The notes under the pieces: generated by a model
Seen by the model: only the letters and a program-made list of their open reading frames with translations
What the model was told of the DNA's origin: nothing
Databases searched by the model: none
Shown: positions 5,811-26,930 of the stretch, piece after piece
How positions within the stretch are numbered: position 1 is the stretch's first letter
Layout of the letters: each line of letters begins with the position of its first letter
Program-made: the position numbers and the translations under genes
IMG/VR virus record: IMGVR_UViG_3300048011_000431
Location: 1-32,804 of that record
Source: a virus
Strand: one strand, 5' to 3'
Length of the DNA: 32,804 nt

Positions 5811-6809
5811 ATGCCAAGATTAAGTTTATGGAACCCTCGTAAGGGTAATGACTACAAGTTCATTGATAAGATGGTGAAAGCACACTTCGATCATGGCGGT
5901 ACGTCATTACTTGTACACAAATATATCGGCTCAGTTGATGAGAACGATCCTAACTATGATCCAGCTAATCCACCAATTCAGGATTTGCTGTTCATGGAGA
6001 ATCGTGATAGAAAATATGAAACAACTTTGTATGATTTACGTGGTGCATATACAGTGAGTGACCAAGACTTTGATTTGTCACAGTTCGGTATGTTCTTAGG
6101 GTCAGACCAGAATGTATTCACAGTACATCTAAATCAGATGGTAGAACAGATGGGTCGAAAACTTATGACAGGTGATGTTATTGAGCTTCCTCATATGAGG
6201 GATGACTTACTACTTGATGAAGATGCGGCTGCCGTTAATCAATATTGGGTTGTACAAGAAGGTTCAAAAGCAAGCGAAGGGTTTGATCCAGGATGGTGGC
6301 CACATATTTGGCGTGTCCGTTGTAAGCAACTTCAAGACTCACAGGAGTATTCTGATATATTTGGCACTGGCGAAGAAGCTGATGATTTGAAGAATTTGCT
6401 CTCAACATATAACACCGAGTTGCAAATTAATGATGCTATCGTAGACGAAGCACAACAGAACGTTCCTGGAAAGTATTATGATTATAGAAAGAATAATCTT
6501 GAGTACGCGGTACAAAGCGATCATCCCGATGATGTTGATTATGCAACTGTAGCAAGTGGTAGTAGCTTTCCACAAGAACCAGATGACAATTCTTACTTCT
6601 TGAGAGTGGATTATAAACCAGCAAGACTATTTCAATATCGTGATAATAAATGGTTCAAAATTGAAGATGATGACGGCGCATGGGAAGTTGGACACAGATT
6701 GCATCATCAATTCATTAACAATGATGGCGTATCAATACTTGATGACGGCACAACGGTAAATTCACGTGTAAATCTGTCAAAAGCAGTTAGACCGAAGGTA
6801 GATGAATAA
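5811..6809 (+). CDS. 14: Neck protein gp14
   Basis: This 332-aa protein resembles gp14 of T4-like phages. The recognisable core is VFTVHLNQMVEQMGRKL followed by GDVIELPHMRDDLLL and a YWVVQEG segment, which mirrors the order NPNLF...GDLIYFP...F.INWVEP in T4 gp14. The marine version is longer than the T4 protein (about 256 aa). In T4, gp14 joins gp13 in the neck that connects head and tail. AAGGA precedes the ATG and a late box lies just upstream. Its stop overlaps the gp15 start as TAATG. Identity is supported by adjacency to gp15; without that context I would be less sure. Confidence 0.82.
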   Translation: MPRLSLWNPRKGNDYKFIDKMVKAHFDHGGTSLLVHKYIGSVDENDPNYDPANPPIQDLLFMENRDRKYETTLYDLRGAYTVSDQDFDLSQFGMFLGSDQNVFTVHLNQMVEQMGRKLMTGDVIELPHMRDDLLLDEDAAAVNQYWVVQEGSKASEGFDPGWWPHIWRVRCKQLQDSQEYSDIFGTGEEADDLKNLLSTYNTELQINDAIVDEAQQNVPGKYYDYRKNNLEYAVQSDHPDDVDYATVASGSSFPQEPDDNSYFLRVDYKPARLFQYRDNKWFKIEDDDGAWEVGHRLHHQFINNDGVSILDDGTTVNSRVNLSKAVRPKVDE

Positions 6810-8206
6810 TGAGTGATACAAGACAAATGCATTTTTATGATGAACAAATAAGAAGATATATTCTTCAGTTCATTCGTATGTTTAGTGGCTTCTCTGTAAA
6901 GACAGGCAAGAAAATGAATGATGGCGTAAGCGATTACTATATGCGTGTACCAGCAAGATACGGTGACGTATCTCGTATGGCGGCTACGATTGTCAAGGGA
7001 AATTCAGAGAACATTGTTAACTCAACTCCATTTATTGCATGTTGGGTTCAGAGTTTTCAACCAGATAGAGCGAGAGTACAAGATCCGTTATTCACAGATT
7101 CAGTAGGTGTAAATGAAAGACGTTGGGATCCAGAAACAAGCAAGTATACAAACGAACAGGGAAATAGGTACAGTGTAGGCAGATTAATGCCAGTTCCATA
7201 CTTATTAAACATGCAAGTAGATGTATGGACCTCTAATACCGATCAGAAGCTACAACTACTAGAGCAAATGCTAGTGTTATTCAATCCTGCACTTGAAATT
7301 CAACAGAATGATAACCCAATTGATTGGACTACGATTACAACAGTTGAGCTTACAGATATTCAGTGGACAAGCCGTGGCATTCCTGCAGGGATTGAAGACC
7401 AAATTGATATCGCAAGTTTGTTCTTCCAAATACCAGTTTGGATTAACCCACCAGCACAAGTTACAAAACAAAATGTTATTAGAAATATTATTCATAATAT
7501 CTATAATTACTCTGACTTAGATACACTTGATTATGATCCTAACGCATTTGAATTCTTTGCTGATTTACAAAAAGACAGTTCGGTTGTTGTTACTCCTGGA
7601 AATTATGCAGTAAATGTTTATAAAGAAGACGATACTATACTAATCAAAGCATTAGAGAACGGCAACTGGGATAACGGAATAGAATGGGATACTGTACTAT
7701 CTAACTATGGTACATTACATGATGGTGTTTCAAGGATACGTCTTAAATATCATGGTGAACTAGAAGATTTAAACGCCGATGTAATAGGCTCTGTATCACG
7801 CACAGAAGACCCTACAACGCTTCTGTTCAACTTAGATAGTGATACACTACCAAACAACACTATAACTAGCGTAGATAGAGTGATTAATCCAAGTACTGTT
7901 AAACCAGGATTCAACAGTTTCCCGTCACAATCTGTCGGACAACGATATCTATGCTTAGGTTCTGCATCATCTGATTCAGTATGGGGAATACACATTGAAG
8001 AAAACGATATCATTGAATACAACGGTTCATCTTGGGTTATTAGTTTCGATGCAAAGGAGTTCGATCTAAGAGCATACGTCACAAACACATATACTATGCA
8101 ACAATTTAAATTTGAAGATGGAAATTGGAGTGATACATATCAAGGTATTTACGAAGGTGGTTATTGGAGACTTGAACTAATCAGCGAAAGTGAAACTGAT
8201 GATTAA
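6809..8206 (+). CDS. 15: Tail sheath stabiliser / completion protein gp15
   Basis: The 465-aa protein carries the gp15 pattern of T4-like phages over about its first 235 residues: MHFYDEQIRRYILQF, the RVPARYGD strand, the YLLNMQVDVWTSNTDQKLQLLEQML segment, and IPVWINPP. In T4, gp15 caps the tail tube and sheath and joins the tail to the neck. The rest (about 230 residues) extends beyond T4 gp15 (272 aa) and looks like extra beta-rich domains, containing segments such as VVTPGNYAVNVYKEDD and SVGQRYLCLG, which may be exposed decoration. It is coupled to gp14 by TAATG and overlaps the Nudix gene at its end. Confidence 0.85.
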   Translation: MSDTRQMHFYDEQIRRYILQFIRMFSGFSVKTGKKMNDGVSDYYMRVPARYGDVSRMAATIVKGNSENIVNSTPFIACWVQSFQPDRARVQDPLFTDSVGVNERRWDPETSKYTNEQGNRYSVGRLMPVPYLLNMQVDVWTSNTDQKLQLLEQMLVLFNPALEIQQNDNPIDWTTITTVELTDIQWTSRGIPAGIEDQIDIASLFFQIPVWINPPAQVTKQNVIRNIIHNIYNYSDLDTLDYDPNAFEFFADLQKDSSVVVTPGNYAVNVYKEDDTILIKALENGNWDNGIEWDTVLSNYGTLHDGVSRIRLKYHGELEDLNADVIGSVSRTEDPTTLLFNLDSDTLPNNTITSVDRVINPSTVKPGFNSFPSQSVGQRYLCLGSASSDSVWGIHIEENDIIEYNGSSWVISFDAKEFDLRAYVTNTYTMQQFKFEDGNWSDTYQGIYEGGYWRLELISESETDD

Positions 8207-9887: not shown

Positions 9888-11354
9888 TTACTTGCCTACT
9901 TTTACTTCTACGAAACCGTCTACTGCATCTGCAATAGCAATACCTACGTATGCTGTCATACGTGGGTCTGCGTCTTCGTTTGTCCAAGCTGTTGCTGTAC
10001 CTGCAACGTCAGAAGCAACAAGAATGTCACCTTTCTTAACGTCACCAGTTACTTTCACTGGAACACGACCTTGTAGAGCAATGAATGGGTGTGTTTCATT
10101 GTTACCTGCTTCTGCATTCATAGCAACCGCTGGGCGCAGTGATACTACACCTGCAAGTGAACGCTGTGCGAATGATGATGAAGCTGTTACTTCTGCTTCA
10201 CCGCCGAACACTACAACTGTACCTTCTGCATATGGAGCATCTGCTGCATAACGTTCTGCAAGGTCAGCATACTTAGCGTATGTTGCTGTACCGTTGAAGT
10301 TTGTTGCTGTTACGTTTGCGAATGATGGTGAATCAGTTGTACGAACATGCTGGTTCATTGCATCTGCATAGCCGTTATCTGTAAAGCGACCATCTAGATC
10401 AACTGTTACGTTACCATTTGTACGTGATAGTGTTAGAACACCATTTGAAGTACTGAATGAAGCGCCAGTTAGATAGTTGTCTGAGTTAGCATCTGAAACT
10501 GTTACTGATTCTGATGTACCGTCACCTTTGTGAATAGTTACAGTATCATTTGAAACTGTAATTGCATCTGTTGCACGTAGTGCTTGTGATGATGTTTTAG
10601 CAACTTTTGCAGCAATGTTAGTAGCTGTTGTAGATGCGAAGTTTGCATCATCGCCTAGCGCCGCAGCTAGTTCGTTAAGTGTATTAAGTGCTGCTGGTGC
10701 TGAATCGGCTAGTCCCGCAATTTCTGAATCAACGTATGAGCGTGTTGCCATACGTGTTTCGTCTACTTTGATTGTGTTACCTGAATCTGAGAATGTTAGA
10801 CCAGTTGAAGCCATACCACCTGCAAGATCACGGAATACTTCTTGTGCTGTTGAGCCAAGTGACATACCATTGTTAATGTATAAGTGACCGTCAACATCAA
10901 CACGTGATGTTGATGAACCATTCCACCATGATGTTGAACTTGAACGACCAAGTGTTACATCTTTTGTGAACGCTGTATCTTTTGTGATCCAGTTATCGAA
11001 AAGTTCGTCTGAATCGTCGTCAACATCTGCGTCACCATCAATAGTTGTGATTTGGTTTGCTAGAATAGAAACGTTACGTTCTAGGTCAGCCATACGACGA
11101 AGATTTGATTTTGATGCACCAAATACGATATCGTCTGCGCCGATGTCTGCATCTGAAAGAATCGGTTCCATCTCACCTTTTGTGTTAACTTTAAACTTAT
11201 AGTTTTTATAGTCATCATCTGATGCTGATGATAGTGATGAAATATCGTTCCACTTACCATCGTTTGTTTTAAGAGAAGCTGCCGAAGCAATCTTTTCTTT
11301 CCATAGGTCTTTAAGTGATTTACTTGAACCACCAATTTTAAACTTACGTGACAT
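9888..11354 (-). CDS. Tail-fibre-like structural protein with conserved C-terminal domain
   Basis: The 488-aa protein has a distinct N-terminal part (MSRKFKIGGSSKSLKDLW), a fibre body with ATRSYVDSEIAGLADSAPAALNTLNELAAAL, a pattern common in phage tail fibres, and a conserved C-terminal domain starting near YAKYADLAERYAAD. The YADLAE segment followed by a beta-rich domain recalls the ends of many marine myovirus structural proteins and the intramolecular-chaperone or autoproteolytic tail domains (Peptidase_G2-like). I cannot assign a catalytic residue. AAGGAG precedes the ATG. It is the last gene of the fibre cluster and ends at a strong terminator. Confidence 0.8.
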   Translation of the reverse strand: MSRKFKIGGSSKSLKDLWKEKIASAASLKTNDGKWNDISSLSSASDDDYKNYKFKVNTKGEMEPILSDADIGADDIVFGASKSNLRRMADLERNVSILANQITTIDGDADVDDDSDELFDNWITKDTAFTKDVTLGRSSSTSWWNGSSTSRVDVDGHLYINNGMSLGSTAQEVFRDLAGGMASTGLTFSDSGNTIKVDETRMATRSYVDSEIAGLADSAPAALNTLNELAAALGDDANFASTTATNIAAKVAKTSSQALRATDAITVSNDTVTIHKGDGTSESVTVSDANSDNYLTGASFSTSNGVLTLSRTNGNVTVDLDGRFTDNGYADAMNQHVRTTDSPSFANVTATNFNGTATYAKYADLAERYAADAPYAEGTVVVFGGEAEVTASSSFAQRSLAGVVSLRPAVAMNAEAGNNETHPFIALQGRVPVKVTGDVKKGDILVASDVAGTATAWTNEDADPRMTAYVGIAIADAVDGFVEVKVGK

Positions 11355-11387
11355 TTTTTGTCTCCTTAATGAGTTTTCTAATACGAA

Positions 11388-23811: not shown

Positions 23812-24477
23812 TTATACTACACTCGTAGTACCGAACATACTTATTACTACCCAGGTAGTATCTCTAAACATCATAGTTATACTGTCCCCTTGTTGTGTCA
23901 TTAAAATACTTGTGTGTCCAAGAAGATTATCTGGGTTAATTTGGATAGGAGTTGAAATTGCGTCTTTTACATATATTATTTTGATATTACCATTTTGTCC
24001 ATCAGGCATGGTAACCTGTGTATCAGTATTTGTAGTAACTTCGCTTGTACCTGATGTTACATCAACTGCTGTTAAAATTTCAGCAGAACTTTGTGATACA
24101 GAAATATTGTTTGCATATAGGGTTGCCCACTCATTAGTAGGTGAACCTAAATTAACAGTGTCTGTGGTCGCTGGTGTCACGTCACTAGCAATTCCTGCAC
24201 TGAATGTGATATTCGATCCTGTTAGGCCTAATGTAATTACATCACCAGCAACAACAATGTTGCCTCCGATATAAGCATCAGTTGCAACATATATTCCTCC
24301 TGAAACATTTAACGCCGCGTCACCCAACAAAGGTGTTGTTAAATCTACATTGTCTGTACTTAGGATGGTTATCTTTTCAGCAGTTGATAATGACTGCTCA
24401 ACCGTTAGATTACCAGTTACAGTGTTGTTTCCATTAACAATATATTCTCCACCGTCTGGTACTATTACCGATGTCAT
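23812..24477 (-). CDS. Short fibre-like structural protein
   Basis: The 221-aa protein has beta-rich, Thr/Ser-rich composition typical of phage fibres, with GNLTVEQSLS, a repeat-like GGIYVATDAYIGGNIVVAGD and the motif VNLGSPTNEWATLYANN, which is related to LGSPTKKWRDLYLSS in the 689-aa fibre. The C-terminal segment (IQINPDNLLGHTSILMTQQG) is a common fibre-end fold in marine phages. The ATG at 24477 is chosen because GGAGG lies 8 nt before it; the in-frame TTG at 24492 precedes that ribosome site. It is the first gene of the fibre cluster and follows a late box. Confidence 0.8.
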   Translation of the reverse strand: MTSVIVPDGGEYIVNGNNTVTGNLTVEQSLSTAEKITILSTDNVDLTTPLLGDAALNVSGGIYVATDAYIGGNIVVAGDVITLGLTGSNITFSAGIASDVTPATTDTVNLGSPTNEWATLYANNISVSQSSAEILTAVDVTSGTSEVTTNTDTQVTMPDGQNGNIKIIYVKDAISTPIQINPDNLLGHTSILMTQQGDSITMMFRDTTWVVISMFGTTSVV

Positions 24478-24513
24478 CCAAATTTCCTCCAAATAGGTTT
24501 TCTTAATACAAAA

Positions 24514-24521: not shown

Positions 24522-24590
24522 CTTTTTATCAGCATTATAAAAAAATCAATCAAACAAGTAAATCTATAACGTTTATCTCTACAAATCTGC

Positions 24591-24641: not shown

Positions 24642-24929
24642 ATGGAAGAATACCACGTATACAGAGTTTTCGAAGGCGATTTCGCTGATAACACAAGTTG
24701 GGAAAGTAGCGCAAGTTATGCATATTGCTCTACTATGAAAGACACATCACCAGTAACTGTGTCATTTCAACATGTAGTTGAATCAGGCGGAGACGCTGTT
24801 GTAAAATGGACATTCTCTTCATTGGAAGATATGAACGCATTTATTACTTTTGCGAGATCAGGTAACACTGATAGAGAAGTAGTAGGTTCACCGGAAGGAC
24901 AATTTCCAGGAAGAGCATACACAATTTAA
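24642..24929 (+). CDS. Small hypothetical protein, isolated plus-strand gene
   Basis: The 95-aa acidic protein has no recognised motif. It appears to alternate short strands and a helix (AVVKWTFSSLEDMNAFITFA), like a small alpha/beta domain. AAAGGAG precedes the ATG at good spacing, and a late box and a bidirectional terminator frame it, so it is a complete single-gene late unit. It is the only plus-strand gene between 9365 and the right end. It is transcribed towards the ncRNA locus and shares its terminator. Function is unknown. Confidence 0.75.
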   Translation: MEEYHVYRVFEGDFADNTSWESSASYAYCSTMKDTSPVTVSFQHVVESGGDAVVKWTFSSLEDMNAFITFARSGNTDREVVGSPEGQFPGRAYTI

Positions 24930-24965: not shown

Positions 24966-24994
24966 AAAAAAGCGAGCTCAGGGCTCGCTTTTTT
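24966..24994. terminator. Bidirectional intrinsic terminator
   Basis: A 12-bp perfect stem (AAAAAAGCGAGC / GCTCGCTTTTTT) with a 5-nt loop and T tracts on both strands. It ends the 95-aa gene from one side and the ncRNA from the other. Confidence 0.92.
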
Positions 24995-25207
24995 AATAAA
25001 GTGATAGGTTGGACTTCAGAATACCAACAACCCAGCTTTGCAGTCTGTTCTGCTAAATCACTGAGAGCCTAGTATTAAACAGTTACGTTTAAAGTCGTAT
25101 CTTCATGTCTCCATGCTCATACGCTGTCACTACAACTACTAGCCAAGTTCGGGACCTGCTATCCCTCTTCCTTGCACTATCTAACTAAAGACCGTCGCCT
25201 TTGCTAT
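24966..25207 (-). ncRNA. Candidate structured non-coding RNA, about 240 nt
   Basis: No coding frame fits this interval, yet it has its own consensus promoter and a strong terminator on the minus strand. The RNA can fold into consecutive elements with perfect stems. The first is a 5' hairpin AAAGGC/GTCTTT with GACG loop (25202-25187). An imperfect arm follows with CAAG/CTTG enclosing GGGA/TCCC (25174-25144). Next, a closing stem CTAGTA/TACTAG (25142-25137 with 25074-25069) encloses a CGTAT/ATACG arm with a 3x3 internal loop, CATG stem and GAGA tetraloop, plus a TTAAAC/GTTTAA hairpin. The last is a stem AGTGAT/ATCACT (25062-25057 with 25005-25000) enclosing GCAG/CTGC and GTTGG/CCAAC hairpins. 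Two three-way junctions plus a GNRA loop indicate a specific fold. I cannot match it to tRNA, tmRNA, RNase P or SRP RNA. Confidence 0.78.
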
Positions 25208-25213
25208 GTACTT

Positions 25214-25242
25214 AATATAGTACTTCTAGATGCAAAAGTCAA
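25214..25242 (-). promoter_or_regulatory. Host-type promoter of the ncRNA
   Basis: TTGACT (25242-25237), an ideal 17-nt spacer and TATATT (25219-25214) on the minus strand, next to the T tract of the preceding terminator. The predicted +1 is near 25207. It has the strongest consensus of the host-type promoters here. Confidence 0.82.
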
Positions 25243-25243
25243 G

Positions 25244-25273
25244 AAAAAAAAGGCAAATAAATGCCTTTTTTTT
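25244..25273. terminator. Terminator after the haloperoxidase gene
   Basis: GGCA/TGCC with a 6-nt loop, flanked by eight A and eight T that extend the stem, just after the haloperoxidase stop. It separates that gene from the ncRNA promoter. Confidence 0.8.
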
Positions 25274-25278
25274 ATTTT

Positions 25279-26856
25279 TTATACTGAAATTGTTACATCA
25301 ACTCCGTCAAAACCAGTAATAGTAATATCACCAGTTGGCTCAATTAAACGTGATAGATAGTCTTCAAAGTAAGCGATTGCTACTTTTTGTCCTAACATCA
25401 TACCACAGTCACCATCTGAACGATAGTGTACACCTGCAATATTACGTCCAATTGCCATGTTTGCTGCTAGTTTGTTTAGTTCGCCATGTACTGTTACATC
25501 ACCTGCATCTGGTCTACTATATGTTACTAATGAGTTACCATCTGTTGAGTGTTGAACTGCACTATAGTTGCCCATTGTTGACCAGTTTGTATCTGCATAT
25601 ACTAATTTTAAAATAGTTGCATTAGCACCTGCAATTACTGCATGTCCAGCTGGATAAGCTGGGTGTGTTGGTGAGCCTTCTGCATATAGCATTGGTAAAA
25701 ATTCTGCATTATCACCACCATTTGCAACGTTAAATGCCTTTACAGCATCTAATGTTGACTGTGCATTTGTTGTTAGTGCTGAATCATGATACTGTGTGGT
25801 TGCACCAGATATACCAGTAACAATTCGAGCCGCCATTGTTTCTGGACGTAGTTTACAGTGATGTCTCCATTTGTGAACCCATGAGGCTGATAGTGCATGT
25901 GATGATACTGCCGCTACTGCTGGAGCAACAAACGCTGGACCACCATTAGTTAAGAATGCGCCGCTGTTTGATGGATCATTATCAGAGTATGCTGTGTGCC
26001 TTGTACCACCATGTGCTAGCATTGCTGCCGCATAATAGAATTGTTGGTAAATAAAATCACCATGAACAAGTGTTCCTAATCCTTTACCGTTCCAAATATA
26101 TTGAGCTGTTGCTTCATTTGCACCTTGTGCTACTGGTACTCCGCCATCAGCAATACTTTTAAAGTTTGTTGATGTATTTCCGTATACACCAGTATGTACA
26201 TCGTATTTTTGTGAAATTGTGTGTGCGCCCATTTTAAAATCATGTAGTAAAAATTGTGATACATATGGACCAGTAAGACATCCAGGTGCTACACCACGAA
26301 ATAATTCTGCACGTGTTAATGCACCGCTTACTGAATTTACTGGGCCTTTATATTCTGAACCAAATGCATTTAAATTTGTTACTGCACGATCAGCCGCAGT
26401 ATTTGCGCCACCAAAATTTAATTCGTCAAAAGAAATATCACGTTGGATATTTTGTTCGTAAACTTCAACCATTTCACCTGCGCCGGCAACACTATCTAAT
26501 GTTGGTGGTACTGGCATAGTAAATCCATAAGCGTCACAACCCATTACTTCACAGATAAATGCACCTAGTGGGTTTGCTAACTTACGTGTTGCGTTTGGTG
26601 ATAATTGAACATTTTCTAAATCATTTCTTGTACCACGTTCCATTGCCAGTGCTAGTTTTACAACATTTGCTTCTGATGGTAACAAAGTAGTACTGTCATG
26701 ATCTAATGTTTTGCTGAATAGGGCAGGCGTGTTCATTGTAGATACATCAGTATTAACACTTTGATCACGCTCAAACGTATTCATATTGTTTGCTGTACGA
26801 CTAGTTCTCATTTGACGGGCTTTGTCAATAGAATAGTCTTCTTCTCTTTTAGCCAT
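25279..26856 (-). CDS. Vanadium-dependent haloperoxidase-like enzyme
   Basis: This 525-aa protein has the full layout of vanadium bromoperoxidases: LFRGVAPGCLTGPYVSQFLL near residues 185-204, then KWRHHCKLRPE with Lys329 and Arg337, HPAYPAGHA with His398, Gly404 and His405, and GRNIAGVHYRSD with Arg471 and the vanadate-ligand His477. The spacings (Lys-8-Arg, His-7-His, Arg-6-His) match algal and bacterial family members. The usual Ser of PSGH is Ala403, which removes one vanadate hydrogen bond, so activity or halide choice may differ. No signal peptide is visible. The family oxidises halides with H2O2, making hypohalous species. AAGGAG precedes the ATG. It has a hairpin leader and its own terminator. 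Confidence 0.93.
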   Translation of the reverse strand: MAKREEDYSIDKARQMRTSRTANNMNTFERDQSVNTDVSTMNTPALFSKTLDHDSTTLLPSEANVVKLALAMERGTRNDLENVQLSPNATRKLANPLGAFICEVMGCDAYGFTMPVPPTLDSVAGAGEMVEVYEQNIQRDISFDELNFGGANTAADRAVTNLNAFGSEYKGPVNSVSGALTRAELFRGVAPGCLTGPYVSQFLLHDFKMGAHTISQKYDVHTGVYGNTSTNFKSIADGGVPVAQGANEATAQYIWNGKGLGTLVHGDFIYQQFYYAAAMLAHGGTRHTAYSDNDPSNSGAFLTNGGPAFVAPAVAAVSSHALSASWVHKWRHHCKLRPETMAARIVTGISGATTQYHDSALTTNAQSTLDAVKAFNVANGGDNAEFLPMLYAEGSPTHPAYPAGHAVIAGANATILKLVYADTNWSTMGNYSAVQHSTDGNSLVTYSRPDAGDVTVHGELNKLAANMAIGRNIAGVHYRSDGDCGMMLGQKVAIAYFEDYLSRLIEPTGDITITGFDGVDVTISV

Positions 26857-26880: not shown

Positions 26881-26930
26881 GTGTAGGACCGTCGTCCTAC
26901 ACCATTATTTAACAAAAATGTCTATTTATT
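26881..26930 (-). promoter_or_regulatory. Leader hairpin and likely late promoter of the haloperoxidase gene
   Basis: An AATAAATA box (26930-26923) overlaps the end of the permease gene, and a weaker TAAATAAT lies at 26911-26904. Between these and the ribosome site is a perfect 9-bp hairpin with GACG loop (26902-26881), the longest of the three GACG hairpins. Which of the two boxes is used is not clear. Confidence 0.55.

Follow-up and report, generated by a model that had tools for sequence, protein, structure and literature searches.

The window analysed here is a 32,804-nt stretch of viral DNA in which a vanadium haloperoxidase gene lies on the minus strand (25279..26856; match to PDB 1qi9, E 2.6e-45), with its own late-like promoter at 26930 (-) and its own terminator near 25245-25275. 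The next gene on that strand, encoding 226 aa (23812..24492), also has a late-like promoter of its own, at 24522, 22 nt before its start. Between the two lies a 95-aa open reading frame (ORF) on the plus strand (24642..24929), convergent to the RNA described below. It has its own Shine-Dalgarno sequence, AAGGAG, and a late-like promoter (24590, plus strand); it has no family match and no relative among the viral contigs searched. The haloperoxidase gene sits among phage late genes. A 99.9% identical copy occurs in contig L100, and the haloperoxidase DNA of contigs L098 and L099 is 76-79% identical to that of the window.

A small transcription unit among late genes

The minus-strand region between the haloperoxidase gene and the convergent ORF (24966-25207) contains no protein-coding gene. 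A sigma-70-type promoter, TTGACT-17-TATATT (25214..25242, minus strand), recognized in the sequence and in a window-wide promoter scan, predicts that transcription begins near 25207, where a 5' hairpin, P1, has its first base. The match by itself is weak (p = 0.04 within the window); the promoter draws its weight from conservation: representatives of the window's subgroup of relatives (group A, described below) have a near-consensus sigma-70 site at the equivalent place, just ahead of P1. An intrinsic terminator, AAAAAAGCGAGC-CCTGA-GCTCGCTTTTTT (24966..24994, minus strand), consists of a 12-bp hairpin and a T6 tract and is symmetrical, so that it could end the convergent plus-strand gene too. 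From promoter and terminator we predict a primary transcript of ~242 nt (24966..25207, minus strand), running from the predicted start to the end of the T tract. On sequence grounds, 25207-24966 (-) is thus a complete small transcription unit of promoter, 5' hairpin, structured RNA and terminator.

An earlier note on this DNA had read the interval as a structured non-coding RNA equipped with a promoter and a terminator of its own. Its bounds were exact, with the promoter at 25242-25214 and the terminator at 24994-24966, and its central proposal is supported by the sequence and by the comparison of relatives. The absence of coding capacity that it claimed is also borne out: on the sense strand of the RNA, no ORF exceeds 13 codons in the window, the longest ones across the subgroup have 13-37 codons, and no small ORF is conserved there.

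The promoter of the RNA differs in kind from those around it. Each of the 12 ATAAATA (T4-late-like) sites in the window leads into an ORF, and the genes on either side of the RNA are among those served; the RNA has a sigma-70 site where they have ATAAATA promoters. Each of the 12 sites lies no more than 90 nt upstream of an ORF start, which provides a simple promoter map of the phage.

Relationship to manA RNA and a covarying fold

The default Rfam scan of the window (cmscan at the gathering score) returned nothing. A relaxed cmscan of the locus matched manA RNA (RF01745) at 39.8 bits (E 4.9e-9; 1e-10 in a second scan), and the default scan misses it because this score falls below the Rfam gathering cut-off of 55.2 bits for the family. 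The match covers the full length of the model (positions 1-192) at 24998..25202 on the minus strand, and stands apart from all else in the relaxed scan, in which no other Rfam family came near. IMES, GOLLD and ROOL gave no match at the gathering score in the window, nor up to E 10 at the locus; wcaG, PhotoRC-II and other marine cyanophage RNAs showed no similarity by cmscan at the locus; ARAGORN found no tRNA or tmRNA in the window; and blastn of the window RNA and two group B copies against named phages gave no match.

The relationship also holds in reverse. A covariance model, R1, built from ten distinct group A sequences alone recovers cyanophage manA at full length (P-SSM2, 2e-9; L021, 8e-14), and has full-length matches beyond the cyanophages in a group B copy (L006, 9e-9) and in a copy from a tRNA array (L064, 5e-5). 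Judged by these models, the window RNA is a divergent relative of manA RNA and not of an unknown class. The earlier note had allowed for either a divergent form of a known class or a new class, and the RF01745 match and reciprocal model favour the former; the IMES and GOLLD types that it named as examples can be set aside. We call the RNA manA-like rather than canonical manA, since it scores below the Rfam cut-off and lacks the 5'-untranslated region (5'-UTR) position that defines the family.

Thermodynamic support for the fold is modest by itself: the minimum free energy of the window RNA is -71.7 kcal/mol (z = -2.16), and 3 of 200 shuffles were as good. The comparative evidence for RNA structure, drawn from aligned sequences, is decisive. 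Across the ten distinct group A sequences, the consensus has 54 pairs with 99.6% of cells paired, and 20 of the 54 carry two-sided compensatory changes, a result that none of 500 shuffles equalled; with the partners slid, 29-41% of cells were paired. In a combined cross-group alignment, two-sided changes affect 45 of the 54 pairs, and 93.3% of cells are paired (0/500 shuffles as good); as the structure guided the fitting of this alignment, it is the shuffle and slide controls that count.

In the consensus structure, P1 (25182..25206, minus strand; alignment columns 11-35) is a hairpin with a CGACGG loop and compensatory changes. The multibranched domain that follows is closed by P2, in which GATAG (25177..25181, minus strand) pairs with CTATC (25003..25007, minus strand); this stem is invariant in the subgroup and swaps in concert between groups, from GATAG/CTATC in group A to GTGGG/CCCAC in group B and GGGAG/CTCCC in group C. 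The most conserved element is P6 (25008..25028, minus strand), a GTTGG/CCAAC hairpin with an 11-nt loop, TATTCTGAAGT. The loops of P5 and P6 are complementary in each main group, with CAG/CTG swapped in the window subgroup, and the relation is not significant sequence by sequence; a P5-P6 loop-loop contact is on this basis only suggestive, and the original manA figure marks a pseudoknot with '?' (PMC2864571).

Several stems had been drawn from the window sequence in the earlier note. Its GACG hairpin and its arm with a GAGA tetraloop and 3x3 internal loop, which correspond to helices 1, 6 and 7 of the consensus, are real and covary. The CTAGTA/TACTAG stem stands in part, being compensated in some relatives (CTCGT/GCGAG) and mismatched in others. 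We rejected its AGTGAT/ATCACT closing stem, which the window sequence can form but which lacks conservation; relatives pair its 3' strand with GATAG, as in P2.

Relatives, genomic contexts and hosts

To gather relatives, we searched viral contigs with a pair of degenerate patterns based on the P6 hairpin and then scored the records with RF01745. The family model matched 81 of the 85 records found, 31 of them below the cut-off, as in the window. After dereplication these comprise group A, to which the window belongs (22 contigs, five representatives); group B (18 representatives); group C (11), which is the cyanophage and Rfam-seed type; group D (two), which adjoin tRNA genes; and group E (one), within an array of 28 tRNAs. 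Subgroup contigs score 29.7-49 bits at the same locus.

In group A the RNA is found downstream of gp22 and gp23, separated from them by varying cargo genes; several cyanophages likewise carry manA directly after gp23, and others carry it elsewhere. The order in other group A contigs is promoter, RNA, terminator, late-like promoter and gene. A terminator follows within 110 nt of the RNA in all five group A representatives and in 12 of 18 group B loci, compared with 0-1.4% of shuffles (0% for group A), and by sequence every group A representative has a separate promoter and terminator. The promoter is located further upstream of the RNA in group B. In group C, a near-consensus sigma-70 promoter ends 0-15 nt from P1 in 11 of 11 cases.

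Group B is marked by a second element. In 16 of its 18 loci, which are related and so do not amount to 16 independent events, a boxA-like element (TGATCTTTAACA, TGTTCTTTAATA and similar) occurs once, on the same strand and just upstream of the RNA; these loci include L009, L016, L027 and L057. Stray matches elsewhere in group B loci number one in ~170 kb. In rRNA leaders boxA is the site for NusB/NusE, and it functions in antitermination as well as in the maturation of rRNA (PMC4807359). It is absent from the window, from its subgroup and from the cyanophage group, and we found no earlier report in the literature of a boxA linked to a phage non-coding RNA. Three group B contigs (L018, L048 and L057) have extra hairpin-like modules of ~40-70 nt between boxA and P1, and L009 also has a tmRNA gene (10941-11374, minus strand).

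Elsewhere the RNA keeps company with tRNA genes. It lies ~20 nt ahead of a tRNA in five contigs (L005, L007, L008, L047 and L060); in group D, tRNA-Arg or tRNA-Thr starts ~20 nt after it; and in group E (L064) it fills the gap between two tRNA genes. The phage array in L064 (3828-9787) holds 28 tRNAs, with the manA-like RNA as a bead between tRNA-Arg and tRNA-Ser. A 2013 paper reported that manA often adjoins tRNAs (PMC3692125). The window itself has neither tRNA linkage nor boxA.

The major capsid protein of the window phage shares 65-69% identity with its counterparts in large T4-related phages that infect Pseudomonas, Vibrio, Sinorhizobium and Cronobacter; given this resemblance, the window phage probably infects a heterotrophic proteobacterium and not a cyanobacterium. 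Among named phages, the closest by gp23 (Vibrio phage 2.275.O, PA5oct, Phosso and GAP32) have no manA. In a locus-matched comparison through the haloperoxidase gene, L098 and L099 lack manA at this place, and L100 ends before the RNA. Because contigs with the same upstream gene and the nearest gp23 relatives are without it, the RNA is dispensable cargo. At its place, ahead of a small ORF, L098 (~6750-6950) and L099 (~6740-6900) share a different untranslated stretch, GCGACCTC.GCT..GAAAAAA.GAG.GGC, which has no convincing Rfam match in L098 and is possibly another RNA.

Among cellular hosts, nine pattern matches occurred in genome contigs, none with a manA match, and 369 gammaproteobacterial genomes yielded no manA in a search run without a positive control. 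One contig binned as a 'Gammaproteobacteria' metagenome-assembled genome (MAG; L162, 1-300) starts with a cyanophage manA of which just the 3' part is present; a gp32-like gene of cyanophage type comes next, and the contig looks like a mis-binned cyanophage fragment.

A probable autonomous RNA gene and its possible roles

We propose that in this locus a T4-related marine phage carries an autonomous gene for a non-coding RNA, a divergent member of the manA lineage. That it is an autonomous RNA gene we consider very probable; the fuller reading, in which the RNA is also early and trans-acting, is probable on the sequence evidence. By sequence and comparison, the sigma-70 promoter sets the predicted start at the first base of P1, the multibranched fold closed by P2 comes after it, and the intrinsic terminator ends the RNA. 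Synthesis would be early, by unmodified host RNA polymerase, despite the place of the unit among late genes, since the promoters of the neighbouring genes are T4-late-like (ATAAATA) and that of the RNA is of the host sigma-70 type. The RNA may then act in trans as a stable, tRNA-like folded molecule, and perhaps binds a protein or particle of the host translation or RNA-processing machinery. This choice of target is a tentative guess by association, made because some relatives are embedded in tRNA arrays and those of a second group carry the boxA of rRNA operons. The wider claim that manA RNAs are, as a class, early, stable trans-acting phage RNAs that are transcribed from host-type promoters, in some cases with a boxA leader and in others within tRNA arrays, and that reprogramme host translation or ribosome assembly, and are not riboswitches, is speculative and on balance rather unlikely.

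Rfam and Weinberg et al. (2010) file manA as cis-regulatory and possibly a riboswitch (cis-reg 'Y', switch 'y'; PMC2864571), and we found nothing in the literature on its expression or function beyond prediction. As a leader, the window RNA would change its fold on binding a ligand and so control the gene downstream. Published label apart, this is what the cyanophage type often resembles: a terminator follows in only 1 of 10 group C loci, and an ORF often starts ~50 nt downstream with no terminator between, as in the case of a gp32-like gene, so that cis action is possible there and the label may hold for some cyanophage copies. The 5'-UTR location is not found in the window, where the terminator and a convergent gene come next; that neighbour has its own late-like promoter, as has the next same-strand gene (23812-24492), and the RNA is therefore not the leader of the next gene. 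No riboswitch expression platform is visible either, the terminator lying outside the RNA fold and no downstream gene being served, and downstream genes vary among relatives (small ORFs, purL, tRNAs and late genes). We thus regard a cis-regulatory leader as improbable here; judged from gene arrangement, that label is at odds with the window, with its subgroup, with most of group B and with the tRNA-array copies.

The patchy, cargo-like distribution and the placement in tRNA arrays would also suit a decoy against host defence, in which a tRNA-like RNA soaks up a nuclease or other sensor of phage RNA. A weak 13-bit cloverleaf similarity between manA and tRNA in CMCompare points the same way, but its authors judge it presumably false (PMC3692125), and the present evidence ties no defence system to the RNA, which leaves the decoy doubtful. 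The boxA of group B raises the prospect that the RNA sequesters NusB/NusE through a boxA leader and lowers host rRNA synthesis, the fold being a stabilizer; boxA-bearing RNA at high level does titrate Nus factors (PMC4807359). Because boxA is absent from the window, its subgroup and the cyanophage group, titration is not the common function, and we rate it as very improbable. Least probable is a put-type processive antiterminator or an attenuator acting on the polymerase that transcribes it. A terminator directly after the RNA in two groups and a boxA ahead of it in one would be in keeping with such an element, whereas read-through in the window would run antisense into the convergent gene, the genes that come next have promoters of their own, and a promoter-like site follows several group B copies.

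An autonomous, trans-acting RNA gene is accordingly the reading that we prefer. Since 2010, manA has stood as a riboswitch candidate with no ligand to its name; should these RNAs prove to be independent genes, looking for a ligand is misdirected, and in several lineages at least the Rfam label 'cis-reg' is wrong. The free-standing manA-like RNA suggests that such RNAs act on their own, and the rule-like link to boxA in one group and to tRNA arrays in others offers concrete partners that could be sought in lab-grown cyanophages such as P-SSM2. A fixed score cut-off, meanwhile, hides a whole phage subgroup of manA-like RNAs.

GOLLD and ROOL are large structured phage-borne RNAs that at times lie near tRNA genes; they are far larger than the window RNA and unrelated to it in sequence and fold. 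Both are the subject of a cryo-EM study (PMC12286853). wcaG and PhotoRC-II, from the same discovery set as manA, are likewise filed as cis-regulatory and likewise occur in T4-like cyanophages. With manA itself (RF01745) the window RNA shares the entire architecture in the same order (P1 with its GACG loop, P2, inner arms, P5 and P6), including the conserved P6 hairpin with an 11-nt loop, and an origin in T4-like marine phages. It differs in its score (39.8 bits against the cut-off of 55.2), in its position outside a 5' UTR, in its own terminator and in the P6 loop, which is TATTCTGAAGT in the window RNA and TATACAGTAAT in manA RNA. The cyanophage manA RNAs (P-SSM2, P-SSM3, MED4-213, S-TIM4 and S-SSM5) score 169-193 bits against the Rfam model and usually have an ORF close behind without a separate terminator; by the reciprocal model they are homologous to the window RNA, and viral-contig copies of their type also have their own sigma-70 promoter at P1.
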